Shown: positions 2,990 to 58,671, counted from the stretch's first letter. The stretch is 64,000 bases of DNA from a virus (IMGVR_UViG_3300028553_000005:62001-126000); one strand, 5' to 3'. The notes: generated by a model not told the origin, from the letters alone. A program made the numbers and translations.

Positions 2990-3009
2990 ATTAATCTCCT
3001 ATATTAAGG

Positions 3010-3017: not shown

Positions 3018-3077
3018 CCATGAGTTTTTAGTTGATTGTCAAAGTCCCGTTGGCAGTTTTACCTAAATTATTTTCTA

Positions 3078-4058: not shown

Positions 4059-4060
4059 GA

Positions 4061-4435: not shown

Positions 4436-4440
4436 TTAAA

Positions 4441-5085: not shown

Positions 5086-5158
5086 GACAAAAAAGAAATT
5101 GTATTAATTTTTAGTGATAGGTTAAGAGTAGAGTAATTAAAAGTTTTTTCATATTATT

Positions 5159-6886
5159 TTATGGAGCAATTGAAGTAATGGCAAGAACACCTCGTCCTGC
5201 ACTTATAAAACTCCACGTGGTGCTTGCTCCCACTTGCACAGGACTGGATCGGTTGGTTTGATTATTTTGTCCTAACTGCCCGTTACTATTGTCACCCCAG
5301 GCCCACATTGTGCCATCTGTCTTGGTGGCCAATCTATTCTGACTACCGGTTGAAGATGCACTTATTAAATTCCAATTTGTTCCTGTTCCCACCTGTGTTG
5401 GGCTGGACCTATTACTGATGTTACCGAGTCCTAACTGTCCAACATTATTGCGACCCCAGGTCCACAAAGTACCGTCAGTCTTGGTGGCCATAGAACCATA
5501 CTCTCCACCACTAACCAGACTCCAATTAGTTGATGTACCAATTTGTGTAGGACTGAGTTTTGTATAAGTTGAAATTTCGTTGAGTCCTAAAGAACCGTAG
5601 TTGTCATTTCTGCCCCATGCCCACAAGGTACCGTCAGTCTTAATAGCTAAACACTGAGAGGTGCTAATACTTATTCTATTCCACGTGGTATTTGCACCCA
5701 CCTGTACGGGGCTGGATCTATCAACTGTATCGCCAAGTCCTAATTTGCCCATGTAGCCTTGGCCCCAAGCCCACAATGTGCCATCAGTTTTGATAGCAAT
5801 AGAAGATGCTGAAGAAGTGTCAATACGGTACCAATCTGTTCCTGCTCCTACTTGTACTGGACTGGATCTGGCAACTGTATTACCAAGTCCTAACTGTCCT
5901 TGTGTGTTAACGCCCCAGGACCACAAGGTGCCGTCAGTCTTGGTGGCCATAATACTGTAGTTACCAACACTAACAAGGTTCCATGTTGTTGCTGTTCCTA
6001 CCTGTGTTGGGCTGGATCTGGCGTAAACTGTATCATTATGACCTAACTGGCCATTAGTATTGTATCCCCAAGTCCATAGAGTACCATCGTTTCTGATAGC
6101 TGCAGAATTGGTTGCACGGCTACTTACTGACTTCCAAGTTGTTCCTGTTCCTACTTGTGTTGGACTAAGCGTGTATCCCCCACTTGTATTTAAACCTCCA
6201 ACACCAAATCCATTCATACCCCAAGAATATAATCTTGTCAGCGGTGTTAGTGTCACAGTTACTTGGAATGTTTTGCTTGAATCTTGTAACTCAGCATCTG
6301 TAGCTACAACACTAAATGTGTATGTGGTTTGAGCACCAATAGAAACTGTACCAGAGAAATATCCGTTGGCAGCTAATGTTGTACCGGTTGGTAATGTAGA
6401 GCCGGCTGCTAAAGAATAAGATGTTGCACTAGTAGCACTAAGGTTAACACCAAAGGCTGTATTGGCTTCTTGATTTGCCAATGGACTTGCAGTGATCCAA
6501 GAAGGTTCAGAGCTGTATGTGATACCAGCAACTTTAATACCAACGCCACCATCAGGATTAACCACATAAAGATTATAAGATGCCGCTGATTTTGTAGGAA
6601 CTTGAACTTGTAGTGTTGTTGAATTTACATATGTAACGGCTGAAGCAGGAGTTGTGTCGATTAATATGGTGGCACCAGATTGAAATTCGGCACCAGTAAC
6701 AACAATGTAACCACCACCTACGTTAACCGCTGTATCATTTAATACTGTAAAGGTATTACTGGCCACGTTGGCATAGAGAACTTTAGGTGCTAGTGTTTTG
6801 GCAAAGGCTGCCGTGGCTGTATTACTTAATTGTACTGTGTCAATTGTGTAACTGGTGATCTGGTTTCCAAGAATCTTTGTGGTCAT
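5159..6886 (-). CDS. RCC1-repeat beta-propeller adhesin A
   Basis: The 575-residue protein has an N-terminal anchor, an IPT/TIG-like Ig domain (about 38-125), a second Ig-like domain of the putative-Ig type with LPTGTTLAANGYFSGTV (about 130-213), then seven repeats of about 52 residues (215-575). Each repeat carries the core TDGTLWxWGxN..GQLG followed by RSSPVQVG. Seven units is the canonical blade number of an RCC1 propeller. It probably displays a receptor-binding propeller on a fibre. It is first after a perfect late promoter box and directly follows the glycan cassette, on the 3' side of it. Confidence 0.82.
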   Translation of the reverse strand: MTTKILGNQITSYTIDTVQLSNTATAAFAKTLAPKVLYANVASNTFTVLNDTAVNVGGGYIVVTGAEFQSGATILIDTTPASAVTYVNSTTLQVQVPTKSAASYNLYVVNPDGGVGIKVAGITYSSEPSWITASPLANQEANTAFGVNLSATSATSYSLAAGSTLPTGTTLAANGYFSGTVSIGAQTTYTFSVVATDAELQDSSKTFQVTVTLTPLTRLYSWGMNGFGVGGLNTSGGYTLSPTQVGTGTTWKSVSSRATNSAAIRNDGTLWTWGYNTNGQLGHNDTVYARSSPTQVGTATTWNLVSVGNYSIMATKTDGTLWSWGVNTQGQLGLGNTVARSSPVQVGAGTDWYRIDTSSASSIAIKTDGTLWAWGQGYMGKLGLGDTVDRSSPVQVGANTTWNRISISTSQCLAIKTDGTLWAWGRNDNYGSLGLNEISTYTKLSPTQIGTSTNWSLVSGGEYGSMATKTDGTLWTWGRNNVGQLGLGNISNRSSPTQVGTGTNWNLISASSTGSQNRLATKTDGTMWAWGDNSNGQLGQNNQTNRSSPVQVGASTTWSFISAGRGVLAITSIAP

Positions 6887-6909
6887 TTGAATCTATCCTA
6901 AAATATGGG

Positions 6910-6934
6910 TGATTTATACTATATTTATAAATCA
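6910..6934. repeat. 9-bp perfect inverted repeat spanning the late promoter
   Basis: Arms 6910-6918 and 6926-6934 (TGATTTATA and its complement) are separated by 7 bases. Read on the minus strand, it lies just after the stop of the 6946 gene and could form an AT-rich hairpin; there is no U-run, so a classic terminator is not supported. The right arm overlaps the TATAAATA box. Confidence 0.6.
6922..6929 (-). promoter_or_regulatory. Late promoter box TATAAATA before RCC1 adhesin A
   Basis: A perfect TATAAATA on the minus strand lies 35 bases before the ATG at 6886, with a ribosome site (AGGAT) between. It would restart late transcription downstream of the glycan cassette. Confidence 0.62.
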
Positions 6935-6945
6935 TCCACATTTGG

Positions 6946-7776
6946 TTAGACTCCCATTTGCTTACGAATCTTGGTGGCTGAAATGTCGGTGATTGATTTA
7001 TCAAAGGTTTCTTGTTCGATTTTGTATCCTACATCACGACCATAGGTGATATTGACGATATTAGGTACCACTTGAATCTCGTATTGGCCTTGATAGATTG
7101 GATCCAAATCTCTACGGATATACGATTTAACTTGTTCAATGGCAAACGGATTAGAACCTTGCCATCCTTGGCAATCTCGAATTTGAATGACTACCTGACC
7201 AGTTTTGGCAATGGCTCGGTCAAACAATGCTCGGTGACCTTCATGCCATGGTTGCCAGCGACCCAACATTTGAACTGTTTCTTTCTTCCAGTCAAACACA
7301 GGACGCCTACGATTTTCAATAATGTGATTACCAATAAACTCAGCCCATTTCTCCGCATTTTGTTCTGTAACACGGAAGTCATATACATCTGGTGGTACAA
7401 ACATTTTATTAGTATCTTCATAACGACCAGCTTCAATTGTGTCAACCCAAATTGTCCAATCGGCTTTGAAATTGTTTCTCATCTCTGGAATAGGTGCCAC
7501 GAAATCACAAATAACATAATCACCACCAGCTTCAAATGCAAACTGTGCCATTCTTAATGATTGCCGAATACGTCCTTCTTTAGAGAAATCCCAATCATTG
7601 AATTTTTTACGAACATCATCAGCATTGAACCAAGTTACTTGAGCATTAAATCCTGTGATAGGTAACATTTCACCATAATCGGCTCGTTCACCATGTTTTT
7701 CTAGGTATTTTTTCAATGCTTCAGCCAAAAATGTTTTACCGGCACCAGGTAAACCCATAATTAAAATCTTTTTCAT
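6946..7776 (-). CDS. APS-kinase-like / nucleotidyltransferase fusion enzyme
   Basis: This 276-residue protein has two enzyme domains. Residues 1-150 form a P-loop kinase close to adenylylsulfate kinase (CysC): Walker A GLPGAGKT at 8-15, then NADDVR at 51-56, FSKEGRIRQ at 64-72, and CDFVAPIPEMR at 90-100. Residues 160-276 form an HxGH-type nucleotidyltransferase: GRWQPWHEGH at 172-181 and ISATKIR at 265-271. The second half looks more like cytidylyl/NMN adenylyltransferases than true ATP sulfurylase. It could supply PAPS for the sulfotransferase of the same cassette, or phosphorylate and then nucleotide-activate a sugar or alcohol. It is last in the cassette and overlaps glf by 4 bases. Confidence 0.8.
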   Translation of the reverse strand: MKKILIMGLPGAGKTFLAEALKKYLEKHGERADYGEMLPITGFNAQVTWFNADDVRKKFNDWDFSKEGRIRQSLRMAQFAFEAGGDYVICDFVAPIPEMRNNFKADWTIWVDTIEAGRYEDTNKMFVPPDVYDFRVTEQNAEKWAEFIGNHIIENRRRPVFDWKKETVQMLGRWQPWHEGHRALFDRAIAKTGQVVIQIRDCQGWQGSNPFAIEQVKSYIRRDLDPIYQGQYEIQVVPNIVNITYGRDVGYKIEQETFDKSITDISATKIRKQMGV

Positions 7777-8774
7777 ATTTGTTCCTTAATAAAATTATCA
7801 ACGATTGCCAATGATGAACTGATTGCCATATCCATATCGATATAAACATACAATCCACATCTACCAATAAACTGGACCTTGTCGTTTTTTATGTCCTTAT
7901 ACTTATTATATATTGCTCGATTTAAACCTTCTGAATCTTTTACTGGATAATACCGTTCATAATTATTATCTCGGTAATCACAAGGTTCTTCTAATGTATA
8001 TCTCTCACCAAATCCATGTTCAGGAAACAATTCCCATTTTGTAATGCGTGTATATGGTCCATCATCCGTAAAATTAACTACCGATGTTGGCATATCAAAG
8101 TAAGATTTATCGGTAAAATGAAACTTGATTGACCGATATGGTAATTCACCATGACAGTAATCATAATACTCATCTATTGCCATTGAATTAAAAACAAAAT
8201 CATATTCAGTTTCCATTTCTTTAGAAAACTTGGTGTTTAATTTTATTTTTATATTTGAATGATTTAATATATTTCCAAATAGTTTATTATAACCACCTTT
8301 GGGTAGGCATTGGTATTCATCATTTGGAAAATATAATTCGTTTAAATCATTTCTTAGTTTGATACGATTTAATATACTACTATCAATCTTATCGGTCGGC
8401 AAGCCCCACATCTTTTTAGAATAAGGCACATACAGAGTTTCAAACAATTTATCACCTAATATTTTTTGTGTTTCCAAATTAGGTGGTAAAGTTAGATATT
8501 GGCCTTTGTGATATGCTTTGACTTTATGTTGGTATGGTACCCATTCGGTGTATTGGGACAACCATTCAATTACTCTATTGTTATTTGTGTGTAGGATGTG
8601 CGGTCCGTAGCGGTGTACTAGAACACCATCTATCATCTCATCATAACAGTTGCCACCAATATGGCCTCTTTGGTCAATTATGGTAATATTGTAACCACGA
8701 TTGGCCAGTTCTCTGGTTATAACTGAACCTGAGAATCCTGTTCCAACGACCAGTATGTTTTGTTTTCTTCCCAT
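7773..8774 (-). CDS. glf: UDP-galactopyranose mutase
   Basis: The 333-residue enzyme converts UDP-galactopyranose to UDP-galactofuranose using reduced FAD. Seen are the dinucleotide-binding VGTGFSGSVITRELANRG (residues 10-27), the DQRGHIGGNCYD motif (35-46), YGPHILHTNN, the PYSKKMWGLP segment, and a late RCGLYVYIDMDMAI segment that binds FAD. It is slightly shorter than usual (360-390) but no core motif is missing. It starts within the upstream glycosyltransferase gene (58-bp overlap) and overlaps the next gene by 4 bases. A phage-encoded mutase implies that galactofuranose is used by the neighbouring transferases, which is inference. Confidence 0.93.
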   Translation of the reverse strand: MGRKQNILVVGTGFSGSVITRELANRGYNITIIDQRGHIGGNCYDEMIDGVLVHRYGPHILHTNNNRVIEWLSQYTEWVPYQHKVKAYHKGQYLTLPPNLETQKILGDKLFETLYVPYSKKMWGLPTDKIDSSILNRIKLRNDLNELYFPNDEYQCLPKGGYNKLFGNILNHSNIKIKLNTKFSKEMETEYDFVFNSMAIDEYYDYCHGELPYRSIKFHFTDKSYFDMPTSVVNFTDDGPYTRITKWELFPEHGFGERYTLEEPCDYRDNNYERYYPVKDSEGLNRAIYNKYKDIKNDKVQFIGRCGLYVYIDMDMAISSSLAIVDNFIKEQI

Positions 8775-9550
8775 AATTTAATTACGGCATCTTTCGTTAT
8801 ATAAAACGGTATGTCCATTTTGTTTGACATATGTACCACTAGTGAACCCATTGGCATAAACATTTTAAATTCTGGTTTATTCCACACCGTGGATATCGTG
8901 TTACCTTCCCAATGATGTTCTTTTTCACCAATAATTAATAACTTATCAAAGTGTTCTTTATACTTTTTAAATATCTTGGCTTGAATCATAAATGATTCTT
9001 GTGTAAACCATGTGCTTCTATAATATCTATGCTGTGTAGGAACAACAAAACATGGCCTATAATATGTTTCATTATATGGATGACTTGGATGATAATATAG
9101 TTGATTGAAATCTTGTGGAAAAATACCTATTTCTAAACCAGTAACCGATGAAAGATATGTCCACGATTCAATCATTTCACCAATGGCACCTGAAAAATGT
9201 AGATAGTCATCTTCTACAATGTACACCAAATCATCATCAGGTAAATTGTAGATGTATTCGTAGGCTACTTGAACTGAGTGCCTAGATTTTTTCTTAGGTG
9301 ATAATCCTTCTTGATTTCTTGGTGGTAAAAAATTGATTGTGACGAAATCGTGTGGTTGAATCAGTTCTTTAAGTATGTCCTGAAATTCAGCAACAGAGTT
9401 ATCATCAATAATGTGTAATGATTTTTCTGGTATATTTTTGAGATTGGTGATAATTGAATTTAAACACCGAAGAATACATTCAGATTTATTTACTATTCTA
9501 TCGGACTGTAGAGAAGTTCTATTACAAGTCCTTAATACAACATGAATCAT
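8717..9550 (-). CDS. Glycosyltransferase, GT-A type (GT2-like)
   Basis: This 277-residue protein begins MIHVVLRTCNRTSL, the first strand of a GT-A fold, followed by an IIDDNS motif near residue 48 and the metal-binding YIVEDDYLHFSGA around residues 109-122. The later part has aromatic-rich segments and a HHWEGNTIST block. The acceptor is unknown. It overlaps the methyltransferase by 4 bases upstream and glf by 58 bases downstream, so it sits in one tightly coupled operon. A role in building a galactofuranose-containing glycan is plausible from context only. Confidence 0.72.
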   Translation of the reverse strand: MIHVVLRTCNRTSLQSDRIVNKSECILRCLNSIITNLKNIPEKSLHIIDDNSVAEFQDILKELIQPHDFVTINFLPPRNQEGLSPKKKSRHSVQVAYEYIYNLPDDDLVYIVEDDYLHFSGAIGEMIESWTYLSSVTGLEIGIFPQDFNQLYYHPSHPYNETYYRPCFVVPTQHRYYRSTWFTQESFMIQAKIFKKYKEHFDKLLIIGEKEHHWEGNTISTVWNKPEFKMFMPMGSLVVHMSNKMDIPFYITKDAVIKLWEENKTYWSLEQDSQVQL

Positions 9551-10128
9551 AATTTACGAACAGCAGATTGATAACCACTAGGTAACTCAAAAATTTCTAA
9601 TTTATCCCAATAACATTGCATGAAATTATCTACTGCCATTTTAGGCGAGTTGCATGGGTTGTTATCTTTTCTCCACACCATACTGTCATCAAATAACATT
9701 ACACCACCTTTATTCAACAATTCAAATCCTAAAACACAATCTTGTAATACACCTGGTGCTCGGTGATCTCCATCAACATAGATAAAATCGGCTTTGACAC
9801 CACGATTATATAAGTCAATCAATCCATCAAAAGATTTTTTATTAATAAACTCCACCACACCTTTAGGTTCAAATTCTTCTAAGTTACTTAAAAACATTTC
9901 TTTGGTCTGTGGTATATTTTTTTCAGGCAAGTCATCACTATTGTCGTATGGATCAATTGCGTAATGTTTATAATTTGAATTTTGTTGATGACAAATACCA
10001 GTTATGTTAAATGTGCTGTCACCTTCAAAACATCCTATTTCAATTGATACTTTTGGAAAGCCAATTGAACTTACAATGTGTTGAAAACTTCTAATTGTGT
10101 GGTCGTGGAATCTTACGGTTAATTTCAT
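9547..10128 (-). CDS. Class I SAM-dependent methyltransferase
   Basis: This 193-residue protein shows SAM-binding motif I at VSIEIGCFEGDST (27-39), an acidic second motif at HYAIDPYD, ADFIYVDGDH with the DGDH typical of the Methyltransf_24 type (about 115-123), and GGVMLFDDS. The length suits a single-domain enzyme. Members of this family often modify sugars or glycan ends. It overlaps its neighbours on both sides by 4 bases (ATGA), within the glycan cassette, so a glycan O-methylation role is likely but not proven. Confidence 0.78.
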   Translation of the reverse strand: MKLTVRFHDHTIRSFQHIVSSIGFPKVSIEIGCFEGDSTFNITGICHQQNSNYKHYAIDPYDNSDDLPEKNIPQTKEMFLSNLEEFEPKGVVEFINKKSFDGLIDLYNRGVKADFIYVDGDHRAPGVLQDCVLGFELLNKGGVMLFDDSMVWRKDNNPCNSPKMAVDNFMQCYWDKLEIFELPSGYQSAVRKL

Positions 10129-10841
10129 GTTTCTAATCTATCATTACGAATTGTTGAACGGCCTTCTAGAGGTCTGCCAAGTATGGTTGTTTTAAGATTA
10201 CCATCTTCTTCTCTTTCTTTAACATCATAGGCGTAGATACCCATCTGATAAATTGGAAATATATCGGCTCGAAGAATGATATCTAATGGCGCACAGATAC
10301 CAAATTTAATTACATGAGAAATCATATTTTTTGCCACAGCAGGATCAATGGCATATGCATGAGCCCTACAAATAAAATGATAGTTTGGTCCTTCTGATGC
10401 ATGAGTAGGTGTTGGTAGAACTGGCCAACCACCGTTGACCTGTTCATTATTACCTAGATATGCGATTGAATTAAATACGGCATGCTTGAGATATGGTTGA
10501 ACCATAATCGAATCATGTTCTAAAATAACAATTGGTTGGTCTATCTCAACACACTTAGCCCACAAAGAAATATGGGACAATGCACAAGCCACTTCACCTC
10601 TCGTCAAGTAATGATCTGTGATTTTCATCATTTTCATTACTGAACTATTTTTAGAATGTTCCGGCTCTTTGATGCGCCGAGAATAACCATCATACGCATC
10701 CCAATACTCGTAAGGCATTTTTACTTGATTACAAGATTCGGCACATCGTAAGGCCACATCTTCAGATTTTTTATTATCTTTAACCCGAATGATGTAAGCC
10801 TTATCTACATCCATATTATACGAAAAAAACAAAGAATTCAT
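10125..10841 (-). CDS. Glycosyltransferase family 25-like (LPS-type)
   Basis: The 238-residue protein starts with a DVDKAYIIRVKD strand, has the WDAYDGY segment, and the family-typical TRGEVACALSHISLWAKCVE (80-99) followed by PIVILEHDSIM (103-113). GT25 enzymes transfer galactose or related sugars to LPS or to hydroxylysine of collagen. The usual EDD metal motif reads EHD here, a conserved-position change that may alter activity. It is the third gene of the cassette and overlaps the methyltransferase by 4 bases. Confidence 0.75.
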   Translation of the reverse strand: MNSLFFSYNMDVDKAYIIRVKDNKKSEDVALRCAESCNQVKMPYEYWDAYDGYSRRIKEPEHSKNSSVMKMMKITDHYLTRGEVACALSHISLWAKCVEIDQPIVILEHDSIMVQPYLKHAVFNSIAYLGNNEQVNGGWPVLPTPTHASEGPNYHFICRAHAYAIDPAVAKNMISHVIKFGICAPLDIILRADIFPIYQMGIYAYDVKEREEDGNLKTTILGRPLEGRSTIRNDRLET

Positions 10842-10858
10842 AACAAACTTTCAAAAAA

Positions 10859-11281
10859 TTACATTAGTGCGTCAACATCCTCATGTGTAGCGGCTGCATT
10901 AACTTGAATAACACGAGCATCTCTAGTTGACTTGGCGGCTTCAATTTCAGCTTCAAGTGTGGAGATTTGGTCAGCAAACTCTGGTATATTACGCTTCATT
11001 TGCAATTGGTTTTCTAAACGAATTACTTCAAAATTGGCTTGACCAATTAAAGAACCTTTACGCTCATCAACTGACAACTCACGCTTACCCCAAACAATCT
11101 CAATTGGATTTTTGGTAATATCAAATGTATGTGTTGTAAGAATTTCACGGTTAGGTGTGAGGTCTGGAGTAATCTCTACGGCTGCACTCCAACCGGATTG
11201 ACCTTCTGGTGCTGGTGTATCCCAGCAATCTGTTACCTTACCATTCTGAACTCGAACATTATAACCTGATCTTGTTGGCAT
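10859..11281 (-). CDS. Small conserved phage protein of unknown function
   Basis: The 140-residue product is not recognised as an enzyme. Residues 1-55 are beta-like with VRVQNGKVTDCWDTPAPEGQSGW, and residues 85-130 are charged and Ala/Glu-rich, probably a coiled coil. The layout (short beta head with a helical tail) recalls small fibre-associated or fibre-assembly proteins of phages, but no specific family can be shown. It has a good ribosome site (AGGAGATAG) and lies between the sulfotransferase fusion and the GT25 gene. Confidence 0.6.
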   Translation of the reverse strand: MPTRSGYNVRVQNGKVTDCWDTPAPEGQSGWSAAVEITPDLTPNREILTTHTFDITKNPIEIVWGKRELSVDERKGSLIGQANFEVIRLENQLQMKRNIPEFADQISTLEAEIEAAKSTRDARVIQVNAAATHEDVDALM

Positions 11282-11293
11282 TACTATCTCCTA

Positions 11294-13054
11294 TTACTTT
11301 TTAAAATTTTGTAAATCGACTTTGATCTGATCAAATGGAGCAGACCATTCTCCAAATACTTCTTGGCGATACAGCTTCACCGAATCATACCAGACTGTTG
11401 TGTTTCCTGGTGGAGCCCACAAATAGTAAGGCAATTTAGGTACTACAATCCATGTTGGTATTCCCATGGCACCACAGAGATGTGCAACAGAGGTACATGA
11501 TGTGATAATTAAATCACATGATGCAGCCGCTATTCGTGTTTCTTCCCAATGACCTAGTGGTACTTCTTTTACCCAATATGGTTTGTATTGAGAACCCTCA
11601 TCTCGTTGCAGTGATATAAATTCTGCATCAACATCTTCTAAGGCATCAAATAGTTTTGTTGGTGGGAATATCCGATGTTGTTCATGTTCGAACTGTGGAT
11701 TACCTTGCCACCGTAGACCGATTCTCAAACCTTTATGTGGTTCTACTAATGGTTTATTTATGTATGGTTTTCCTGATATGTCCTTGTATTCGTAACCAAG
11801 AATGGGTATCGTGGACATGGATGGTGCCCAATAATCATGTACAATACCATATACAGCATCACTCTGGCAGACCGCCACGACTCCTTCTATATCACGGAAT
11901 AGTGTCGCCAACGAACCGGAACACGCCACAATCACTTCTCCAGCAATCTTTGCAATATCCCTTGCGTAACGAACTCCGTGTATCTGGTCACCTAATCCAC
12001 CTTCTAGATTTAATAATACGGTACCTTTTGATTTGCCGTCCCACATTGGCATTGGTGATTTTGGTGGTTCATTACCAAACACTCCTTCGTCACGACCACG
12101 GAACAATAGTTTTTCACCTTCTAAAAGTTTACCATGTTGCATGAGATACCAACCACGATTAAAAGCGGCACGATTATTCCATGGTTCTTCTTTCTCTAAT
12201 TTCTGTGCTATCTTCCAACCTTCTTCAAAGTTACCCATTAGACCAGCAGCCAACTGTAAATCAAGGTCGTGAATAGGTTTATTGGCAACTTTTTCTCCTA
12301 ACCAAAATCTTGGTTGTACGAATTCATAATAACGATGCTTCAATACATCTTTAGAATCTTCTTTGTGTTGATAACCTAATTTTGGTTTAACATCATGAAG
12401 GCCTTTTACTTCCCAAATTTCTTCATCTTTTTCTTGTAGATTGGTACCATCAATGGCATTTAAATCATATTCAAAATCTGGTAATTCTAAAAACTCATGA
12501 ACTCGTTTTAATTCTTTTTGTGGATCATTCATCAGATCATCATAGTCAATAATTAAAAAACATTCAGGTGCAAATGAATATCCTTTTTCAAATGTTTGAT
12601 ATGATTCTTTGAGGTGTTTAATCAGGTCATCTTTGAGTAAAAAATGATCCAAATTTTTTGGTTTAGCCACACGAACAAAAGAAGCGGCACAATCTTCTAC
12701 ATTACGAACTGTGGCAATAATTTTAGGTTTATGTCCAAGAACTTTAGACATGGTACGCATGTTCGTATCATCAGCCCAACCTCTAGCTTTATCAAGAATG
12801 ATGGGTTTATCAATGTCATGATATTGAGTTTTACAGATGTTATTTAAAACATGCTGAATCTTTTCTTCTTCCTTTTTCTGATCCGTTTGAGCTCTAGTGG
12901 TCAAACTATCAGCCCATGCTCTTAGAGTACCTACTAGGGTATCTAAAAGATTAGAAGTGGATGTGGCATGAATGCTTGGATTTTGGCTAAGAATAGCAGC
13001 CAATACTGTTGAACCAGAACGTGGAAGTCCTGAAAGAAAATATATGTTTTTCAC
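11294..13054 (-). CDS. Sulfotransferase fused to TPR and GT-B glycosyltransferase
   Basis: The 586-residue protein starts at GTG. Residues 1-230 form a sulfotransferase: PAPS 5'-phosphosulfate loop GLPRSGST at 9-16, 3'-phosphate motif VRNVEDCAASF with Arg117 and Ser125, and the LIIDYDDLMNDP segment. Residues 265-320 are TPR-like helices (NNRAAFNRGWYLMQHGK). Residues 340-586 resemble GT9/heptosyltransferase or SPINDLY-type GT-B enzymes: LLNLEGGLGDQIHGVRYA, GLRIGLRWQGN, SLQRDEG, and CDLIITSCTSVAHLCGAMGIPTW. It probably both adds sugar and sulfate to a polymer or protein. It is the first gene of the cassette, behind a sigma70-like promoter. Confidence 0.82.
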   Translation of the reverse strand: MKNIYFLSGLPRSGSTVLAAILSQNPSIHATSTSNLLDTLVGTLRAWADSLTTRAQTDQKKEEEKIQHVLNNICKTQYHDIDKPIILDKARGWADDTNMRTMSKVLGHKPKIIATVRNVEDCAASFVRVAKPKNLDHFLLKDDLIKHLKESYQTFEKGYSFAPECFLIIDYDDLMNDPQKELKRVHEFLELPDFEYDLNAIDGTNLQEKDEEIWEVKGLHDVKPKLGYQHKEDSKDVLKHRYYEFVQPRFWLGEKVANKPIHDLDLQLAAGLMGNFEEGWKIAQKLEKEEPWNNRAAFNRGWYLMQHGKLLEGEKLLFRGRDEGVFGNEPPKSPMPMWDGKSKGTVLLNLEGGLGDQIHGVRYARDIAKIAGEVIVACSGSLATLFRDIEGVVAVCQSDAVYGIVHDYWAPSMSTIPILGYEYKDISGKPYINKPLVEPHKGLRIGLRWQGNPQFEHEQHRIFPPTKLFDALEDVDAEFISLQRDEGSQYKPYWVKEVPLGHWEETRIAAASCDLIITSCTSVAHLCGAMGIPTWIVVPKLPYYLWAPPGNTTVWYDSVKLYRQEVFGEWSAPFDQIKVDLQNFKK

Positions 13055-13086
13055 TGGTAAAACCTTTCAAATAATTAATTCACACT

Positions 13087-13115
13087 ATTATATATGATAC
13101 TTGGATTGATGGCAA
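13087..13115 (-). promoter_or_regulatory. Sigma70-like promoter for the glycan/sulfation cassette
   Basis: On the minus strand TTGCCA (13115-13110) is followed after exactly 17 bases by TATAAT (13092-13087), 5/6 and 6/6 matches to the consensus. It is 33 bases before the GTG start at 13054, inside a 94-bp intergenic gap. No TATAAATA box is present in this gap. It suggests host-polymerase, possibly early, expression of the cassette. Confidence 0.6.
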
Positions 13116-13148
13116 TGTTGTTAAGGTATTTTACAATATCATGTGGAA

Positions 13149-14957
13149 CTATGATAATTTGGCAAACCCGGCGTAAGGCCCCATACTAACTAAAGTCCAA
13201 TTTGTTGCTGATCCTACTTGTATTGGACTGGATCGGGTAACTTTATCATTTCTTCCTAATTGGCCATAATTATTTTGTCCCCAAGACCACAATGTGCCAT
13301 CTGTTTTGGTGGCCGTAAAACTATACGCACCTCCACTAATTAAACTCCAATTTGTTTCTGTTCCTACTTGTGTTGGACTGGATCTATAAACACCTCGATT
13401 ATTGTGTCCTAATTGGCCAAAATCATTTTTTCCCCATGTCCATAAAGTACCATCAGTTTTAGTAGCTGCTTGTATAGGACCGGGTGCACCGATAACAAAA
13501 TTATTTAAACTCCAATTGGTATTTGCTCCAATTTGTACTGGACTCGACCTACGAACTGTATCATTTCTTCCTAATTGGCCATTGTTATTATATCCCCAAC
13601 TCCATAGTGTGCCATTAGTTTTGGTGGCTATAGTATAATTATCTCCGAGTTTTGCTTGACTCCAAGTTGTATCTGATCCTACTTGTATTGGACTGGATCG
13701 GGTAACTCTATCATTTCTTCCTAATTGGCCTTCTTCGTTAATTCCCCACATCCATAAAGTACCATCAGTTTTGGTGGCCGATACAACTCCCACTCGACCA
13801 ACACCTATTTTACTCCAAGTAGTTCCTGATACTTGAACTGGACTAGATCGGTTAACTCTATCATTGCGGCCATGTTGACCAGAATCATTTTGTCCCCATG
13901 TCCATAAAGTACCATCGGTTTTGATAGCTGCAAAGAAATAGGGGCTGATACTTATCAATGACCAATTGGTATTTGTTCCAATTTGTACAGGACTGGATCT
14001 ATTGACTCGATCATTATGTCCTAATTGACCATTACTATTATTTCCCCATGACCATAGGGTACCATCAGTTTTGGTGGCCAACACAGAATACCTTGCCGTA
14101 CTTATTTGATTCCAATTTGTATCTGTTCCTACTTGTGTTGGACTGGATTTAGAAGAAGAACCAATATTTAATCCATCTTCTCCATTCCCAGAATGAAAAC
14201 CCCACACATATAATCCTGGCGCTGGACCTATCGTTACCGTCAAACTAAATGTACGACTTGCATCTTGATTTTCAACGTCAGTTGCTTTCACATCGAATGT
14301 GTAAGTTGTTTGTGTACCAATTGTTACAATACCAGAAAATAATCCGTTAGCGGCCAATGTAGTACCAGCAGGTAGCGATGTGGTGTTTGCATAAGTTATT
14401 GATGAATCGGAGTTTGCGCTCAGATTAACAGAAAAAGATGTATTGGCATTTTGGTTACTTAATGTTGCACCGGTGCTCCATGCTGGGAATGAACTTGTTG
14501 TCAATCCATTAATTCGAATACCTGTACCTCCATTACTGTTAACGACATATACAGGATATGAAGCCGCTGTGAGTGCTGGAACTTGTGCTCTGAGTGTTGT
14601 TGAATTTACAAAAGATACCGCAGGAGCCGCAGTTGATCCAAATACCACAGTTGAACTATTGGTAAATCCTGATCCAGTAATAACAACATATCCACCAGTA
14701 GTATTGGCTGCCGTATCATCTAAAATATTATAAGATGAATCTGCAATTTGAATTGTAGTAATTAGTGGAGATGCTGAGTTTGCCAGTATGGCTGCATTGG
14801 TATTTGCAGTTGCAAAAGCAGCAGCTGCCACAGCAGTAGCAATAGTTGCAAGAGTGTTTGCATTAGTTGCAGTAGCTAAACCACTTGCAACAGATGAATC
14901 AAGTTTATCTGAAGTAATTGATGATGCGAGGATATTGTTTGCTGTTATTTTTGCCAT
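13149..14957 (-). CDS. RCC1-repeat beta-propeller adhesin B
   Basis: The 602-residue protein has an Ala/Asn-rich N-terminal stalk (1-64), an IPT/TIG-like domain (65-155), a putative-Ig domain with LPAGTTLAANGLFSGIV (157-242), and seven RCC1 repeats (about 247-602). The Ig pair is nearly identical in wording to that of adhesin C at 16520. Repeat 1 starts at LYVWG and the last ends at the C-terminus, which would close the propeller. Two repeats share a 58-bp DNA stretch with a single mismatch. It is last of a run of three RCC1 genes and is followed by the glycan cassette. Confidence 0.82.
   Translation of the reverse strand: MAKITANNILASSITSDKLDSSVASGLATATNANTLATIATAVAAAAFATANTNAAILANSASPLITTIQIADSSYNILDDTAANTTGGYVVITGSGFTNSSTVVFGSTAAPAVSFVNSTTLRAQVPALTAASYPVYVVNSNGGTGIRINGLTTSSFPAWSTGATLSNQNANTSFSVNLSANSDSSITYANTTSLPAGTTLAANGLFSGIVTIGTQTTYTFDVKATDVENQDASRTFSLTVTIGPAPGLYVWGFHSGNGEDGLNIGSSSKSSPTQVGTDTNWNQISTARYSVLATKTDGTLWSWGNNSNGQLGHNDRVNRSSPVQIGTNTNWSLISISPYFFAAIKTDGTLWTWGQNDSGQHGRNDRVNRSSPVQVSGTTWSKIGVGRVGVVSATKTDGTLWMWGINEEGQLGRNDRVTRSSPIQVGSDTTWSQAKLGDNYTIATKTNGTLWSWGYNNNGQLGRNDTVRRSSPVQIGANTNWSLNNFVIGAPGPIQAATKTDGTLWTWGKNDFGQLGHNNRGVYRSSPTQVGTETNWSLISGGAYSFTATKTDGTLWSWGQNNYGQLGRNDKVTRSSPIQVGSATNWTLVSMGPYAGFAKLS
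13208..13265. repeat. 58-bp intragenic repeat, copy 1 (RCC1 blade)
   Basis: It matches 13673-13730 with one mismatch (13243 against 13708). Both copies encode the VTRSSPIQVGS type part of an RCC1 blade. Confidence 0.85.
13673..13730. repeat. 58-bp intragenic repeat, copy 2 (RCC1 blade)
   Basis: Partner of 13208-13265, 465 bp away in the same orientation and reading frame. Recombination between the copies would remove whole blades in frame. Confidence 0.85.
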
Positions 14958-19361: not shown

Positions 19362-21230
19362 TTAAGCTATTGCCCAATTTTGTAGCACTCTTATACCAGC
19401 ATAACTAGGCGGAGTACCACTAATTATTTCTGTAAAATTCAAATTATCATTACTTGCACTAACTGTTATATTACTTACATATCGGGTAGAATCATCTGAA
19501 CTACCTATTCGTAAAAATTTTACATCAGTACCTACATATTTTTCAGATCCCATATCGTAATCAACTACAAATGGCAGAGGATTCATATTAGTATCGTCCA
19601 GCGCTGTAGCATTTTGATTATTCAGATTTGTTAATGATCCAGCACTAGGAGCTACAGGAGAAGATAATGTTTGTGTGATATAATTTCCAGCACTATCTCT
19701 AAATGATAATTCTGTTAATTGAGCTTGCGAGCCGCCACCATTTACTGAATTTAATGTTACTCTAAAATATCTATATGATTGCAAAAACGTAATTGCTCCA
19801 GAAGAAGTAAATTTATAATATCTGTATCCACCAGAAGTTGTTACTGTTGGTGATCCAGTTGTTGAAGTTGCAAGTGCAAATGAATCAGGATACCTGAATA
19901 TACAAACACCAGATCCACCGGCAAACATTCTACCACCACCGCCTCCTCCAGTATTTGTTGAACCAGCACTAGTGCCTCCTGTGCCACCACCACCGGTGCC
20001 ACCAAGACCGTTAACGGCTCCATAGCTGTTAGATCCTGTACCTCCACCACCAGCATAATAAGTTCCATCTAACCATTGTTTTCCAGCACCGCCAGCACCT
20101 CCGCTAGTTCCAGAAACACCTACTGCTCCAGCTCCACCACCACCACCTCCAGTATATGGAGCTCCGGTTTGGTTTGCGCCTCCAGCATTTCCATATCCAG
20201 TTCCGCCATTATTACTTGTTTGTATGGAATTTCCTACATTTGTTACGCCGCTGTGTATTCCTCCGCCACCACCTGAACCTCCATCTTGGCCATTATAAGA
20301 ATAAGGTTGTGATGATCCTGCACCGCCACCCATACCTCCACCATAAGTGAGTCGTGTTATAGAAGAATTAGCTAAAGTCGAATTGTCACCTCTTTGTGAA
20401 CCTGAAGCACCACCAGCACCTATCGTAACAGTATAAGCCAATCCACTTCCTGTTATTGTTCCTTCTAACCAACCGCCAGCGCCACCACCGGCACCATCAA
20501 CTGTACCACCAGTTCCAGAACCTCCGCCTGCACCACCACCTGCTATTAACAAATAGTCAATCGATGTCGGCACAGGTAAAAAAGCACTGACAGTTAAATT
20601 AAATGTTCTGGTAGAATCTTGATTTTCAACATCTGTAGCTTTAACACCAAATGAATAAGTATTAGCTGATGTTATGGTACCATAATAATATCCATTGGAC
20701 AATAAATTAAAGCCTGTTGGTAGTATTGTGGTATTCGAGTATGTAACTGATGAATCTGATGTTGCGGATAATGTATTAGAAAATGCAATATTAGATGTTA
20801 CATTAGCTAAAGTTGTTGATGTTAACCATTGTGGCATGGTTGAAATAACAAATGAACTAGAGTATAAAGCACCTGATGAATTTGAATTGTAAACCGATAC
20901 TGCATAGTTTCCTGTGTTTGAAACAGGTAATTGAGCTCTCAATTCTGATGAATTTACAAATGTAACATTGGCTGTTGGTATCATCGTACCATTAAGAAAC
21001 ACATTCGCTGTTGAAGTGAAATTACTACCAAGAATACGAATATATGAATTGCTGATTGCAGCAGCCGTATCATCTAAAGTATTATAACCACTATCAGTTA
21101 CAACAATAGATGAAATAGAAGGACCTGTAGACGCACCAGAATTTACCAATCTGACAGATGTTGTAACAATCTGACTATTCTTGGCTGTTTCTTGTCCTAT
21201 CTGAGATTGGCTTGCTGTTGTAATTGCCAT
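19362..21230 (-). CDS. Glycine-rich adhesin with Ig stalk and discoidin-like C-terminus
   Basis: The 622-residue protein has an IPT/TIG-like domain (38-130) and an Ig domain (132-215) closely related to those of the RCC1 adhesins, then DYLLIAGGGAGGGSG opening a glycine-rich domain (223-450), and a C-terminal domain (about 470-610) beginning YRYFRVTLNSVN with LTELSFRDSAG, FVVDYDMGSEKYV, and ITVSASNDNLNF. The last part resembles F5/8-type (discoidin) carbohydrate-binding domains. The same stalk carries a different head than in the RCC1 proteins. The start overlaps the stop of the 21230 gene by one base. Confidence 0.72.
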   Translation of the reverse strand: MAITTASQSQIGQETAKNSQIVTTSVRLVNSGASTGPSISSIVVTDSGYNTLDDTAAAISNSYIRILGSNFTSTANVFLNGTMIPTANVTFVNSSELRAQLPVSNTGNYAVSVYNSNSSGALYSSSFVISTMPQWLTSTTLANVTSNIAFSNTLSATSDSSVTYSNTTILPTGFNLLSNGYYYGTITSANTYSFGVKATDVENQDSTRTFNLTVSAFLPVPTSIDYLLIAGGGAGGGSGTGGTVDGAGGGAGGWLEGTITGSGLAYTVTIGAGGASGSQRGDNSTLANSSITRLTYGGGMGGGAGSSQPYSYNGQDGGSGGGGGIHSGVTNVGNSIQTSNNGGTGYGNAGGANQTGAPYTGGGGGGAGAVGVSGTSGGAGGAGKQWLDGTYYAGGGGTGSNSYGAVNGLGGTGGGGTGGTSAGSTNTGGGGGGRMFAGGSGVCIFRYPDSFALATSTTGSPTVTTSGGYRYYKFTSSGAITFLQSYRYFRVTLNSVNGGGSQAQLTELSFRDSAGNYITQTLSSPVAPSAGSLTNLNNQNATALDDTNMNPLPFVVDYDMGSEKYVGTDVKFLRIGSSDDSTRYVSNITVSASNDNLNFTEIISGTPPSYAGIRVLQNWAIA

Positions 21231-31909: not shown

Positions 31910-32506
31910 TTATACAAACGCTGGACCAGTAGCCCAAACTACTAAACTTTTTCTAATTCCTGAAGTAACTGGTGTTACTCTGTGTGTTTTAAAAGAAGGA
32001 AACATTGCTAAAAATCCTTTCTTTTTATCTACAGTCAATACTTCTCCTTGACTAGACAATATTTCTAAATTACCGCCCTCATATTCACTTGGGTCACTCA
32101 ACTGTAATACCATTGATAACTTTCTTGGTGCATCTTGTCCGTGATCTGCGTGCCACCGATAATGACCACCTTCTTCTTGTTTACCATAATATGTTGTATA
32201 TTGTATAGATTCATTGAATCCAGTAATATTAAATCGATAAAATTGTCCGTTCAACTGCCTTAATATCCAAGATAATTTATTAAATATCCATACATTCTTT
32301 TCACTGGGGTGTATCCAAGATATGTCACTTATTCGCACATCTTTTGGAGAAACCTCACCAGCATCTATCTTAGAATCTTCTTTCTCTAAAGAATCTCCTA
32401 GTTCTATTATCTTAGATATTTCTTCATCAGTAAACCCACCATTCCAAGTTACGAAATCTTGTTCTGTTATGCCAAAATTTGGTGACGGTGCAATCGCATA
32501 TAACAT
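31910..32506 (-). CDS. 2OG-Fe(II) oxygenase, prolyl 4-hydroxylase-like
   Basis: The 198-residue enzyme has all residues of the double-stranded beta-helix oxygenase site: iron ligands His119 and Asp121 (RWHADHG), distal His175 (FKTHRVTPV) and Arg185 ten residues later for 2-oxoglutarate. EYEGGNLEI and GFLAMFPSFKTHRV are hallmarks of the prolyl 4-hydroxylase/PiuC group. It lies 22 bases after the gene for a collagen-like protein in the same direction, whose prolines are mostly in the Y position that collagen prolyl hydroxylases modify. Hydroxylation of that protein is the leading hypothesis. Such oxygenases also occur in other marine phages with unknown targets. Confidence 0.85.
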   Translation of the reverse strand: MLYAIAPSPNFGITEQDFVTWNGGFTDEEISKIIELGDSLEKEDSKIDAGEVSPKDVRISDISWIHPSEKNVWIFNKLSWILRQLNGQFYRFNITGFNESIQYTTYYGKQEEGGHYRWHADHGQDAPRKLSMVLQLSDPSEYEGGNLEILSSQGEVLTVDKKKGFLAMFPSFKTHRVTPVTSGIRKSLVVWATGPAFV

Positions 32507-32528
32507 AATAATCCACTTTCAAAAAAAA

Positions 32529-34286
32529 TTAATTAACTGTTCTGTTCCAAGATACTGTAACTGATCCTGAATTTGTTCCTGTGCCTATTCCAATAGGATA
32601 TATTCCTCTACGATTTACTGATACTGAATTATAAGACTTAGTTTCACCTGCATCACCTGTAGAACCTAACACTCCAAGTCCTGGATCTTTTCCGTCCCAA
32701 GTTGTTGGTGCTGGCGAAGCAGAACCCCCTAAAGTTGCACCTGTTCCTATATTTCCAGTAACACCGGTAGTTCCTGGATTGCCGGCCGAACCAGCATTTC
32801 CGTTACCACCAGCACCACCAGATGTTGCATTTCCATTTGCACCAGCATTTCCTACTGAACCGGCACCACCCGTTGCACCTGGACTTCCTACAGGTGACAT
32901 GCCTGTATAATCATTAGTGAGATATGGTGTGAAAGAAAAGTTTGCTGTTCCTGAAGCGCCACCTAATCCAAAACCAGAATTGTTAGAATTACCAGCACGA
33001 CCAGCAGTAGCATTTCCTGTTCCTGAATTATATCTTGCATTATTAAACCAAGAAACATGATTCATCTGACTTGATGCTGGATTAAAAAATCCAGGATTAT
33101 TTCCTAAAGGCGAACAAAATTGAGAATTTTCTGCGCCCCAATATAGAGCGGCTGCACCACCACCGCCACCACCGCCTCCACCACCTTGACTTCCAGCCGT
33201 TCCTGGATTTCCTACGCCAGCGTTGCCAGCTAAACCTCCATTGCCATTAGCTCCTGGATTTCCAGAATTTCCTGTTGCACCTTGATTTCCTGGATTTCCA
33301 ATTAATCCAGCAGCACCGCCAGCTGTTCCTGGTCCTGCTAATCCTCCAGGACTTCCTGCGCCACCTAATCCTCCAGCGCCACCATTCCATGTATAATTAT
33401 TTACTGTGTCAAAATATGTTAAATTTCCTGGTGTACCAGTTGCGCCAGTATTTCCTGGTGTTCCTGATGAACCAAAGTTACCTGCATTACCTGGATTTCC
33501 TGCTGTACCGTCTTTACCAACCCATGTTGATGGCGCTGCACCGCCAGAACCTGCGGTAACAATTGCACTTCCTGGTGTACCTGCTGTGCCGGTACTTCCT
33601 GGAGTTCCTGGATTTCCTGGTGATCCTGACCCTCCAGTTGATCCACCATCACCACCATAACCACCCATAATAGGGGTGTAAATAGTGTTGCTGACCAAAT
33701 TTGTAGTTCCAATTGCTGATTGAGGATATACAACATTTCCACTTCCTGATCCAATAGCCGTCATACCATAAGACCTTGGACTAAGGCTGCTGTGTACTGC
33801 TCCAAGTCCTCCAGTGCCTCCTCTACCACTTGCTGCATTACCACTAGGTCCCCTAGGAGCATTTACAGGTTGAACAACAAATCCACTAGTATTTGACCAA
33901 GAAACTCCACGATTTGTAAGTGAGGTAACTCCTCTTGAACCTCCAGGACCTCCAGCACCACCGTTACCACCAGCACCTGCAGTGCCAGCTGTACCTGGAT
34001 TTCCTGCTGTACCAGCTGTTCCCGGATTACCTAATGCACCTGCATTACCGCCAACACCACCTGGACCACCAACGCCATTTGAACCTGGATTCCCAGCATT
34101 TCCTGGATTTCCAATAGTACCCGGTGTTCCTGTATTACCTCTTGCACCTTGAATACCTTGCGCACCAAATCCCGATAGGTTAACTTGTGTTATGCCTAAA
34201 GGGATTTGAAAATTTCCAGGACTATTGAAAGTTCTTGAACCAGAACTTACTACACCTTGTTTAAGTGTGCGAAAGGCAACAGGCAT
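32529..34286 (-). CDS. Collagen-like tail fibre protein
   Basis: The 585-residue protein has a short N-terminal beta strand domain (NFQIPLGITQVNLSGFG), then four blocks of Gly-X-Y triplets (roughly 42-115, 215-290, 300-375 and 465-540), with non-collagen inserts between, and a C-terminal beta segment ending VTVSWNRTVN. Typical triplets are GNP, GTP, GSP, GNA and GTA; prolines sit mostly in Y, few in X. One insert carries a run of nine or more glycines. It is probably a trimeric fibre. Its start has a clean ribosome site (AGGTAAG) and it is followed by the oxygenase gene. Confidence 0.82.
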   Translation of the reverse strand: MPVAFRTLKQGVVSSGSRTFNSPGNFQIPLGITQVNLSGFGAQGIQGARGNTGTPGTIGNPGNAGNPGSNGVGGPGGVGGNAGALGNPGTAGTAGNPGTAGTAGAGGNGGAGGPGGSRGVTSLTNRGVSWSNTSGFVVQPVNAPRGPSGNAASGRGGTGGLGAVHSSLSPRSYGMTAIGSGSGNVVYPQSAIGTTNLVSNTIYTPIMGGYGGDGGSTGGSGSPGNPGTPGSTGTAGTPGSAIVTAGSGGAAPSTWVGKDGTAGNPGNAGNFGSSGTPGNTGATGTPGNLTYFDTVNNYTWNGGAGGLGGAGSPGGLAGPGTAGGAAGLIGNPGNQGATGNSGNPGANGNGGLAGNAGVGNPGTAGSQGGGGGGGGGGAAALYWGAENSQFCSPLGNNPGFFNPASSQMNHVSWFNNARYNSGTGNATAGRAGNSNNSGFGLGGASGTANFSFTPYLTNDYTGMSPVGSPGATGGAGSVGNAGANGNATSGGAGGNGNAGSAGNPGTTGVTGNIGTGATLGGSASPAPTTWDGKDPGLGVLGSTGDAGETKSYNSVSVNRRGIYPIGIGTGTNSGSVTVSWNRTVN

Positions 34287-56993: not shown

Positions 56994-58201
56994 TATCTTA
57001 AACCTCCTTCAACACCATAATAACCTTTTTGTATTTTGCCTTTATCTAATATCTCTGTTTCTTTGAATGTCATTGTGAGTGTCGATTGAACTGGTGCACC
57101 ATCATCATACGAAGCCCAACCATTTGGTGCAAAATTAACATCGATGTCGGATAAAACACAACTACCATATTTTGGTAAAAATGGATTTTCTTTACCATCA
57201 ATCATGAATTCAACATTAAAGATTGAAGGTGGTACCAAATACATTGAGTCGGAAGAAACTTCTTTAGCAGATATTAATGTTGGTGCAAAATGATATTTGA
57301 ATAAATTTATAATATAGTTTACTTCATTTGCTTCACCTTGAGAGTTTGGTGTGAACACAAATGATAACTGAAAATTTCTTAAACCAATACCACGATAAAT
57401 CATTTGTAACTGTGGATTAATGGCATAACCTTGACCTTTTAACAACACATCTTCTAATGCTCCTCCATTTACACCAAAGCCTGCTTTATTAGCTAAAGCA
57501 GCGCCACCCCGTGTAATTAAAGATATGGCGGCTGGATCTGTGCCTGCTATATTACCGGCTTGTTTTAGTGCTGATCCAACACCACCAAGACCTCCGCCAC
57601 CAGATTTATACGATTCTACAATGGACTTTGCTGGCCCAGCCAACTGGTCAATTGTTCTGAGTGTGTTTATTCCCGAACCCAAATCTGTGAGTTTTAATTC
57701 ATCATACGAAGCATTGTATTGTGCATTGAGTGTATCTGGCATATACAATGAAACAAAAGCCTTTGGCTGAGTTCTTGTTGGTGATATTTTTAAACCTTTC
57801 GATATTGTGGCACCAAAATCACCTAAAAATCCACCCGAACCAGAATCTTCAGATAACTCAAACAATCCTGTGCTCGATTCTGTCCAGGAGCTTTCATCAC
57901 CAGACATAGAACCAGCTTCTTGAGCTATACCACCAAATCCAGGTAAACCAACAGAATCACCCTCAATTAAATTTTCATTAAGTGGTACTTGGCCACCACC
58001 ACTATAACTTGCAGGTATAATTTCTGATATCGAAAATTGAACGTAGTGGGATTTTGATGGACTGGTTGCTAAATCTGAAGGATATTTGTATGTTTTAACT
58101 CCAAGACCGCCGTATAATAAAGCTAGTGGACTATTTGGGTTAAATAGACCTGATGGTATCGATACACCAGCTACGGATGTTGGAATGGATAAGATAGCCA
58201 T
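56993..58201 (-). CDS. gp48: Baseplate tail tube cap gp48-like
   Basis: The 402-residue protein starts MAILSIPTSVAGVSIPSG and has a Gly/Ser-rich middle, like T4 gp48 (364). The C-terminal half contains MIYRGIGLRNFQLSFVFTPNSQGEANEVNYIINLFKYHFAP (in parts, 265-310), then PPSIFNVEFMIDG, and YGSCVLSDIDVNFAPNGWASYDDGAP, as in tube-type proteins gp48/gp54. It is the first gene of the minus-strand block, with a ribosome site (AGAGGAA) and a promoter-like box in the 32-bp divergent gap. Confidence 0.82.
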   Translation of the reverse strand: MAILSIPTSVAGVSIPSGLFNPNSPLALLYGGLGVKTYKYPSDLATSPSKSHYVQFSISEIIPASYSGGGQVPLNENLIEGDSVGLPGFGGIAQEAGSMSGDESSWTESSTGLFELSEDSGSGGFLGDFGATISKGLKISPTRTQPKAFVSLYMPDTLNAQYNASYDELKLTDLGSGINTLRTIDQLAGPAKSIVESYKSGGGGLGGVGSALKQAGNIAGTDPAAISLITRGGAALANKAGFGVNGGALEDVLLKGQGYAINPQLQMIYRGIGLRNFQLSFVFTPNSQGEANEVNYIINLFKYHFAPTLISAKEVSSDSMYLVPPSIFNVEFMIDGKENPFLPKYGSCVLSDIDVNFAPNGWASYDDGAPVQSTLTMTFKETEILDKGKIQKGYYGVEGGLR

Positions 58202-58228
58202 TGATTCCTCTAAAAAAGTTATACATAG

Positions 58229-58236
58229 TATTTATG
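58229..58236 (-). promoter_or_regulatory. Possible late promoter box CATAAATA for gene 48 operon
   Basis: 7 of 8 match to TATAAATA on the minus strand, 27 bases before the gene 48 ATG. It overlaps the ATG of gene 4 on the other strand, so both functions share the same bases. It is the only candidate in the divergent gap for the long minus-strand baseplate operon. Confidence 0.45.
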
Positions 58237-58671
58237 GCATATTCTGGACGATTTACACCTAAAAACCCTCAAAAGTATGTTGGGGATGCAAATAACATCA
58301 TTTACCGGTCCTCATGGGAATGTAAGGTAATGTCTTGGCTCGACAGAAACGATAACATTGTTTCTTGGGCTTCTGAAGAATTGATTATTCCTTATATATC
58401 TCCCGTAGACGGAAAAAGGCACCGATACTTTCCTGATTTTTTGGTTAAAATCAAAACGAGAGATGGTCTCTTAAAAACTATGATACTAGAAGTTAAACCT
58501 AAAAAACAAACTCAACGACCAGAACATAGAAAAAGAGTCACGAAACAGTATATCAACGAGGTGACCACTTGGGGGGTCAATCAAGCTAAATGGAAGGCGG
58601 CTACCGAGTTTTGTTTGGATCGTGGTTGGGAGTTCAAATTACTGACTGAAGATCATCTGGGAATCAACTAA
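58234..58671 (+). CDS. gp4: Head completion protein gp4 (nuclease-like fold)
   Basis: The 145-residue protein, from ATG 58234, closely follows T4 gp4: MAYSGRFTPKNPQKYVGDAN, then YRSSWECKVMSWLDRN, SWASEELIIPYISPVDGKRHRYFPDFLVKIK (in parts, about 45-75), TMILEVKPKKQT, and YINEVTTWGVNQAKWKAA. The fold is that of TnsA/restriction-like nucleases: an Asp (PDF) and E-x-K (LEVKP) are kept. gp4 (with gp50 in T4) finishes the packaged head for tail joining. A TTG 33 bases upstream in frame is less likely as start because T4 homologues begin MAYSG. Confidence 0.93.
   Translation: MAYSGRFTPKNPQKYVGDANNIIYRSSWECKVMSWLDRNDNIVSWASEELIIPYISPVDGKRHRYFPDFLVKIKTRDGLLKTMILEVKPKKQTQRPEHRKRVTKQYINEVTTWGVNQAKWKAATEFCLDRGWEFKLLTEDHLGIN

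Follow-up and report, generated by a model that had tools for sequence, protein, structure and literature searches.

A glycine-rich phage adhesin gene linked to a prolyl-hydroxylase-type oxygenase: a candidate tail-fibre maturation unit

Modification of collagen by a viral enzyme has been described for mimivirus, whose protein L230 (PDB 6ax6) is, by the account of Luther et al. 2011 relayed in PMC8968730, a lysyl hydroxylase-glycosyltransferase. Among bacteria, B. anthracis has a prolyl 4-hydroxylase (P4H; PDB 3itq, 5hv0), a 2-oxoglutarate (2OG) oxygenase that is active on collagen-like peptides (PMC8968730). In phages, Gly-X-Y segments are found in tail fibres such as the EPcl fibres of E. 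coli O157 prophages, which have their prolines mostly at X, show no preference for proline at Y and are accompanied by no hydroxylase; phage and bacterial collagens were stated to have no Y-proline preference, and bacteria and viruses to be without the hydroxylase (PMC3368898). In gp38 of phages S16 and PP01 and in gp24 of Pam3, receptor-binding loops accompany a lattice of glycine-rich motifs (PMC12892980; PMC9608196). Here we analysed a 64,000-bp window of a phage genome (bases 62001-126000 of the 136,428-bp IMG/VR record IMGVR_UViG_3300028553_000005) in which, on the minus strand, the gene for a 585-residue glycine-rich fibre is followed 22 bp downstream by the gene for a 198-residue Fe(II)/2OG oxygenase of the prolyl-hydroxylase type. 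From their sequences, we propose that the two genes are, on balance, probably a tail-adhesin maturation unit in which the enzyme hydroxylates Y-position prolines of G-[N/Q/S/T]-P-G motifs.

We refer to homologues of the window fibre, for which an N-terminal match was required, as class A, to true collagen-like fibres as class B and to other glycine-rich proteins or adhesins as class C. As in mimivirus, Gly-X-Y proteins are encoded together with a 2OG oxygenase that would modify them, and class B relatives encode an L230/LH3-like enzyme; however, the window comes from a virus of bacteria, with an enzyme of prolyl- rather than lysyl-hydroxylase type and a fibre that departs from canonical collagen. 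As in gp38 and Pam3 gp24, glycine-rich motifs flank hypervariable loops, and the receptor binding at the tail tip that is a property of those adhesins is predicted for the window fibre, whereas neither an oxygenase partner nor a regular G-N-P-G pattern is described for them in PMC12892980 or PMC9608196. Class A fibres, which combine a Y-proline preference with a neighbouring prolyl-hydroxylase-type enzyme, are an exception to both statements of PMC3368898 at once. The preliminary description of this locus, made from the sequence alone, had suggested an undescribed pair, and no description of the pairing was found in the literature searched, most subscription journals lying outside its scope.

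Linkage of class A fibres to 2OG oxygenases

Viral contigs were searched using only the N terminus of the fibre, a query that carries no oxygenase information. The search gave 80 dereplicated class A homologues (each scan of viral contigs kept the best 80 by similarity); scans with single proteins returned near-identical or very close copies only. We found a 2OG oxygenase within 3 kb of 78 of the 80 fibres and a member of the window's family at 69 of them; these loci are not all independent, as many of the short homologues have a cassette in common and flanks that are related, and the 78 include 'fam4', which is oxygenase-like and recognised mainly by an HxD...H motif, with a weak Pfam match. 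When at least 3 kb was available on both sides of the fibre, an oxygenase was present in 41 of 41 loci, and in 39 of them it belonged to the window's family. The two exceptions among the 80, L282 and L306, are on contigs that end 2 and 1,753 bases downstream of the fibre, respectively, and in the similar loci L280, L300 and L308 the oxygenase starts approximately 1.6 kb downstream. Enzyme and class A fibre were on the same strand in all loci compared (69/69), with the enzyme upstream in 46 cases, downstream in 25 and overlapping the fibre gene in some phages.

For a control within the same lineage, loci were gathered by an unrelated upstream tail protein. Of the dereplicated loci, 26 extended for 4.5 kb or more downstream; oxygenases were present in four of four with a class A fibre and in one of 22 without (Fisher p = 3e-4). 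In this lineage the oxygenase is therefore not equally common where the fibre is absent, as 21 of the 22 fibre-less loci lack it, although the enzyme is not exclusive to this type of fibre. Together, these counts support a pairing of fibre and enzyme that goes far beyond adjacency, in agreement with what had been suggested from the single locus.

The same counts bear on a different explanation, in which the pair is cargo of a variable host-recognition island and the target of the enzyme is a host protein (for example, EF-Tu), a surface glycan or a small molecule. Host-recognition islands of marine phages often contain oxygenase genes (PMC3909814), DNA repair has been proposed as the role of cyanophage genes with P4H domains (PMC2984593), and the closest fold to the window enzyme, P. 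putida P4H, was solved in complex with EF-Tu. This explanation is weakened because cargo should turn over independently of the fibre, whereas every fibre with complete flanks has an oxygenase, fibre and enzyme appear and disappear together, and the two share a strand throughout. We consider it doubtful, and rank DNA repair and metabolic cargo below modification of the fibre.

Other oxygenases and other sites were compared in the same way. A Gly-rich gene was found within 1 kb in 29 of 63 loci of the window's family, compared with 4 of 38 loci of a second PF13640 family, whose contigs are shorter (p = 2e-4). At the T4-like site (the region of the LtfC-like gene), eight relatives (MED4-213, HTVC008M, Melnitz-1, Mosig, S-SRM01, DSL-LC03, P-HM1 and ACG-2014f) lacked class A fibres as well as oxygenases of the four families searched for; in Mosig, genes annotated with Asp/Arg-hydroxylase domains are found there. 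The other glycine-rich adhesin loci L396, L402, L404 and L406 showed none of these oxygenases in the sequence in view. A PF13640 search of 20 whole records missed oxygenases that were confirmed by a direct Pfam scan, and its negatives were set aside. By tblastn of 50,697 GenBank phages, the fibre and its homologues had no match (a single meaningless one, E = 6, appeared at a limit of 10), and the fibre thus has no cultured carrier in that set; nor did its N terminus have a relative in 84,980 bacterial and archaeal genomes, which leaves it without a prophage host among them. No T4-type late promoter (TATAAATA) was found near the gene pair, and the count of this motif in the window is below chance expectation.

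Two further observations concern oxygenases elsewhere. The genome studied here encodes two other PF13640 oxygenases outside the window (G000:C1:129066-129377 and 132712-132972), away from glycine-rich genes; they belong to the second PF13640 family, which in other phages is often part of the fibre cassette. Cultured T4-like phages have oxygenase clusters a few kb from a glycine-rich protein, namely HTVC008M (L009:9830-14593) and S-SSM5 (L008:5211-12078); these clusters include a 2OG oxygenase, a phytanoyl-CoA dioxygenase and a 'leprecan-like' gene, and the glycine-rich protein of HTVC008M matches PF21722.

Family, fold and active site of the oxygenase

The 198-residue protein matched PF13640 (E = 4e-15, 56.9 bits against a cut-off of 27) and PHROG_61 (E = 9e-36), and all 57 of its aligned homologues match PF13640 at E <= 0.001. 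An AlphaFold model built from the 57-member alignment (mean predicted local distance difference test (pLDDT) 91.5; predicted template modelling score 0.89) has a double-stranded beta-helix fold. When compared with the PDB by Foldseek, this model gave 467 matches at E <= 0.001, the top ones being P. putida P4H (PPHD) with and without EF-Tu, PiuC and PHD2, and a profile of the 57 sequences retrieved only PKHD-type hydroxylases, the P4Hs of B. anthracis and Chlamydomonas, other P4Hs and PHD2. PPHD and PHD2 (EGLN1) are the closest folds, although they act on EF-Tu and HIF-alpha, respectively, and neither is in a tail operon. PiuC, which is of the PKHD type, is one of the strongest sequence matches that the profile has in the PDB (E = 1e-15) but has Phe aligned to Tyr116 and is linked by its name to iron uptake; the match to B. 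anthracis P4H (E = 3e-7) is to a cellular enzyme.

Six residues, Tyr116, His119, Asp121, Arg128, His175 and Arg185, are invariant in all 57 homologues. The earlier reading of the downstream gene as a 2OG-Fe(II) oxygenase, 22 bases from the fibre, with His119, Asp121, His175 and Arg185, is confirmed. Tyr116 and Arg128 are at positions -3 and +9 relative to His119, exactly the spacing of Tyr310, His313, Asp315 and Arg322 in PHD2. In all P4Hs the Tyr points to the nitrogen of the substrate proline (Tyr310 in PHD2), and in all P4Hs and prolyl 3-hydroxylases the active-site Arg binds its carbonyl (Arg322 in PHD2; PMC4396695). Fold, profile and active-site signature therefore agree in supporting a predicted enzyme of the prolyl-hydroxylase type, as its first label, prolyl-4-hydroxylase-like, had implied. 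Collagen-type P4Hs bind the C5 carboxylate of 2OG through a Lys, and the B. anthracis enzyme belongs to this Lys-ligand class, whereas the ligand in the window's family is Arg185, the PHD-type residue, in 57 of 57 homologues, which places the window enzyme outside the collagen-P4H branch.

Proline pattern and candidate target of the enzyme

Glycine makes up 29% of the 585-residue fibre. Its Gly-X-Y blocks, first counted as four, are present, with five main blocks as the corrected number. In runs of at least four triplets, proline is found 19 times at Y and twice at X (binomial p = 2e-4), which confirms the Y-position prolines reported initially; the proline triplets are GNP (10), GTP (5), GSP (3) and GGP (1). 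Across class A, 960 prolines are at Y and 143 at X in 5,959 triplets. The residue preceding a Y-proline is Asn in 72% of cases, compared with 26% otherwise, with Gln enriched 5-fold and Ala reduced to 0.09-fold. Asn is also the commonest X residue in class A triplets (33%), charged residues are few and several long homologues have a repeat period of 27 residues. Between the window fibre and L007, the glycine blocks are 64-83% identical and the two large loops 38-44% identical, which indicates that in class A fibres the loops diverge faster than the blocks.

It is quite likely that the enzyme acts on the neighbouring fibre at all. The 585-residue protein would be a host-recognition fibre or tip, with variable loops between its glycine-rich Gly-X-Y segments. 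The oxygenase, a predicted Fe(II)/2OG prolyl hydroxylase made during infection, probably from the same transcript as the fibre, would most likely put 4-hydroxyl groups on the Y-prolines in the G-[N/Q/S/T]-P-G repeats of the adhesin, either ahead of or during its folding and incorporation into the tail, and would draw oxygen, iron and 2OG from the host. The hydroxyls would make polyproline/polyglycine-II segments stiffer or more soluble, or provide additional hydrogen bonds on the surface that faces the receptor.

Several observations weigh against this proposal. Linkage fails in reverse, as the enzyme family is also found beside other glycine-rich or collagen-like fibres and sometimes beside none: among 113 members of the enzyme tree with known surroundings, a sample enriched for class A by design, 65 have a class A fibre, 10 class B, 26 class C and 12 none. 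Enzymes with the same signature stand beside class B collagens, which have few Y-prolines (36 in 2,655 triplets), and beside class C adhesins with few or none. Most class A fibres are adjoined by two to four oxygenases, which makes the target of any single one ambiguous; at L182:3475-5804, L309, L281 and L289, four different 2OG-oxygenase-like genes are in a row around the fibre, comprising PF13759, two PF13640 families and one that is weakly PF13532-like. The best structural match, P. putida P4H, acts on a host protein, EF-Tu, and the window enzyme has Arg at the 2OG position where collagen-type P4Hs have Lys. Finally, the preferences for Y-proline and for Asn-Pro-Gly could be structural rather than enzymatic. 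When the enzyme was the sole basis of sampling, roughly two thirds of members had a gene for a Gly-rich or Gly-X-Y protein no more than 3 kb away, and fibre class tracks enzyme clade, with 15 changes compared with a mean of 44 when shuffled, an agreement that partly reflects simple linkage.

Some of these observations would also fit an enzyme that modifies the neighbouring fibre mainly at residues other than Y-prolines, such as X-position Asn or loop residues, with several oxygenases jointly decorating glycine-rich adhesins. Asn predominates at X, class B and class C partners are poor in Y-prolines, yet their enzymes bear the same signature, and at least two oxygenases are within 3 kb at most class A loci. 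However, the Tyr/Arg pair and all structural neighbours indicate proline, and Gln, which an Asn hydroxylase is not expected to accept, partly replaces Asn before Pro. We regard such a target as unlikely, and favour the Y-prolines.

The purpose first suggested for their hydroxylation, stabilisation of a triple helix, was not supported. A collagen triple helix with its melting temperature raised by Y-hydroxyproline, as in animals, would account for the Y-proline preference, which resembles that of animal collagen, and longer class A homologues match Pfam Collagen (PF01391) strongly, above the cut-off, and have as many as 137 triplets without a break. A triple helix is expected to be weakened by extra Gly at X or Y, however, and such Gly is found in 35% of class A triplets, compared with 5% in class B, the true phage collagens, and in 26% of the triplets of the window fibre. 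The blocks are broken by fast-diverging loops, and the window fibre itself matches PF01391 at E = 9e-5, with 22.6 bits, below the curated cut-off of 27.2. Ordinary phage collagens, moreover, form triple helices without hydroxyproline (PMC3368898). Given the extra Gly and an architecture that resembles the polyglycine-lattice adhesins, class A fibres probably do not form an animal-type triple helix, and it is improbable that stabilising one is what hydroxylation is for. The AlphaFold model of the fibre has a mean pLDDT of 30, with the ends alone reaching approximately 45-74.

Collagen operons of a neighbouring enzyme clade, and meaning

In a neighbouring clade of the enzyme tree, eight class B loci (L072, L074, L077, L085, L094, L090, L095 and L100) have an enzyme of the window's family near collagen-like genes, that of L072 (operon at 2699-13609) matching PF01391 at E = 7e-115. 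All eight loci encode a large glycosyltransferase protein, in seven of them with an OGFOD2-like oxygenase domain detected by Pfam; L072 additionally has a GT2 enzyme, and L090, L095 and L100 carry Pfam GT25. The C-terminal part of the L072 protein matches human LH3 (E = 1e-30) as well as mimivirus L230 (E = 6e-22) and retains HxD, His and Arg at the corresponding positions; the L100 protein matches both LH3 and L230, plus procollagen galactosyltransferase 1 (COLGALT1) at E = 2e-10. In the collagens of these operons, 503 Lys residues occupy Y and five occupy X, which matches what a lysyl hydroxylase needs; Y-position Lys is also usual in bacterial collagens. These matches show that the oxygenases near phage collagen-like fibres include close relatives of known collagen-modifying enzymes, although they are no proof of the chemistry of the window pair. 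It seems to us evenly balanced whether tailed phages run a collagen-style fibre maturation, in which prolyl hydroxylases serve G-N/Q-P-G adhesins and related phages have entire operons of collagen-like fibre, prolyl-hydroxylase-type, LH3/L230-like and COLGALT1-like genes. As a separate observation, the collagen-like protein of L072 (L072:2699-5893) has an N-terminal stretch that is Hint/intein-like and ends in 'LLVHNTG'; Pfam gave Collagen only.

Table 1 Features of the fibre and oxygenase genes, in window coordinates
Feature	Position	Strand	Basis
Class A glycine-rich adhesin/fibre gene, 585 aa	32529..34286	-	Open reading frame; Gly-X-Y runs; homologues
Conserved N-terminal region, residues 1-40, predicted beta strands 16-20, 24-27, 34-40	34167..34286	-	Alignments; model, local pLDDT ~70
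Gly-X-Y block, residues 41-121, 27 triplets	33924..34166	-	Sequence
Variable loop region, residues 122-208	33663..33923	-	38-44% identity to close relatives, compared with 74-83% in the preceding block
Gly-X-Y block, residues 209-241	33564..33662	-	Sequence
Gly-X-Y block, residues 257-289	33420..33518	-	Sequence
Gly-rich/Gly-X-Y block (broken), residues 302-379	33150..33383	-	Sequence
Variable loop region, residues 380-466	32889..33149	-	44-62% identity, with gaps, to close relatives
Gly-X-Y block, residues 467-516	32739..32888	-	Sequence
Conserved C-terminal region, residues 549-585, predicted strands 549-556, 562-565, 575-580	32532..32642	-	Alignment; model, local pLDDT 54-68
Intergenic gap, 22 bp, with purine-rich stretch GAAAGTGG ahead of the oxygenase ATG	32507..32528	-	Sequence
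2OG-Fe(II) oxygenase of prolyl-hydroxylase type, 198 aa	31910..32506	-	PF13640 match; predicted structure; PDB folds and profiles
Active-site signature Tyr116-x-x-His119-x-Asp121-x6-Arg128, PHD2 spacing	32123..32161	-	Invariant, 57/57
Distal iron ligand His175 and 2OG ligand Arg185	31952..31984	-	Invariant, 57/57

Elsewhere, the window contains a T4-like gp5 gene and two more glycine-rich proteins that match PF21722 (Gly_rich_2), at 19362-21230 and 3078-4058 (minus strand), with no oxygenase of the searched families near either. A TnsA-like endonuclease N-terminal domain (PF08722, E = 6e-25) is encoded at 58201-58671 (plus strand), in the structural region.

In Baltic viromes, few auxiliary genes are as abundant as those annotated P4HA, whose use by viruses 'remains cryptic' (PMC9301287); the linkage described here names a concrete candidate substrate. 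If the proposal is true, phage adhesins bear modifications that depend on oxygen and 2OG, with consequences for host range, the stability of the particle and how tail structures are interpreted, and the statement that viruses of bacteria lack collagen-type hydroxylation enzymes (PMC3368898) would be corrected. Prokaryotic pairs of hydroxylase and substrate could then serve hydroxylated biomaterials. Hydroxylation and glycosylation of tail fibres would together be a widespread, undescribed layer of host recognition, and would give a function to a very abundant family of viral 'auxiliary' genes. These results suggest that the fibres with which phages bind their hosts are chemically modified by the phages themselves, in parallel to the modification of collagen in animals.
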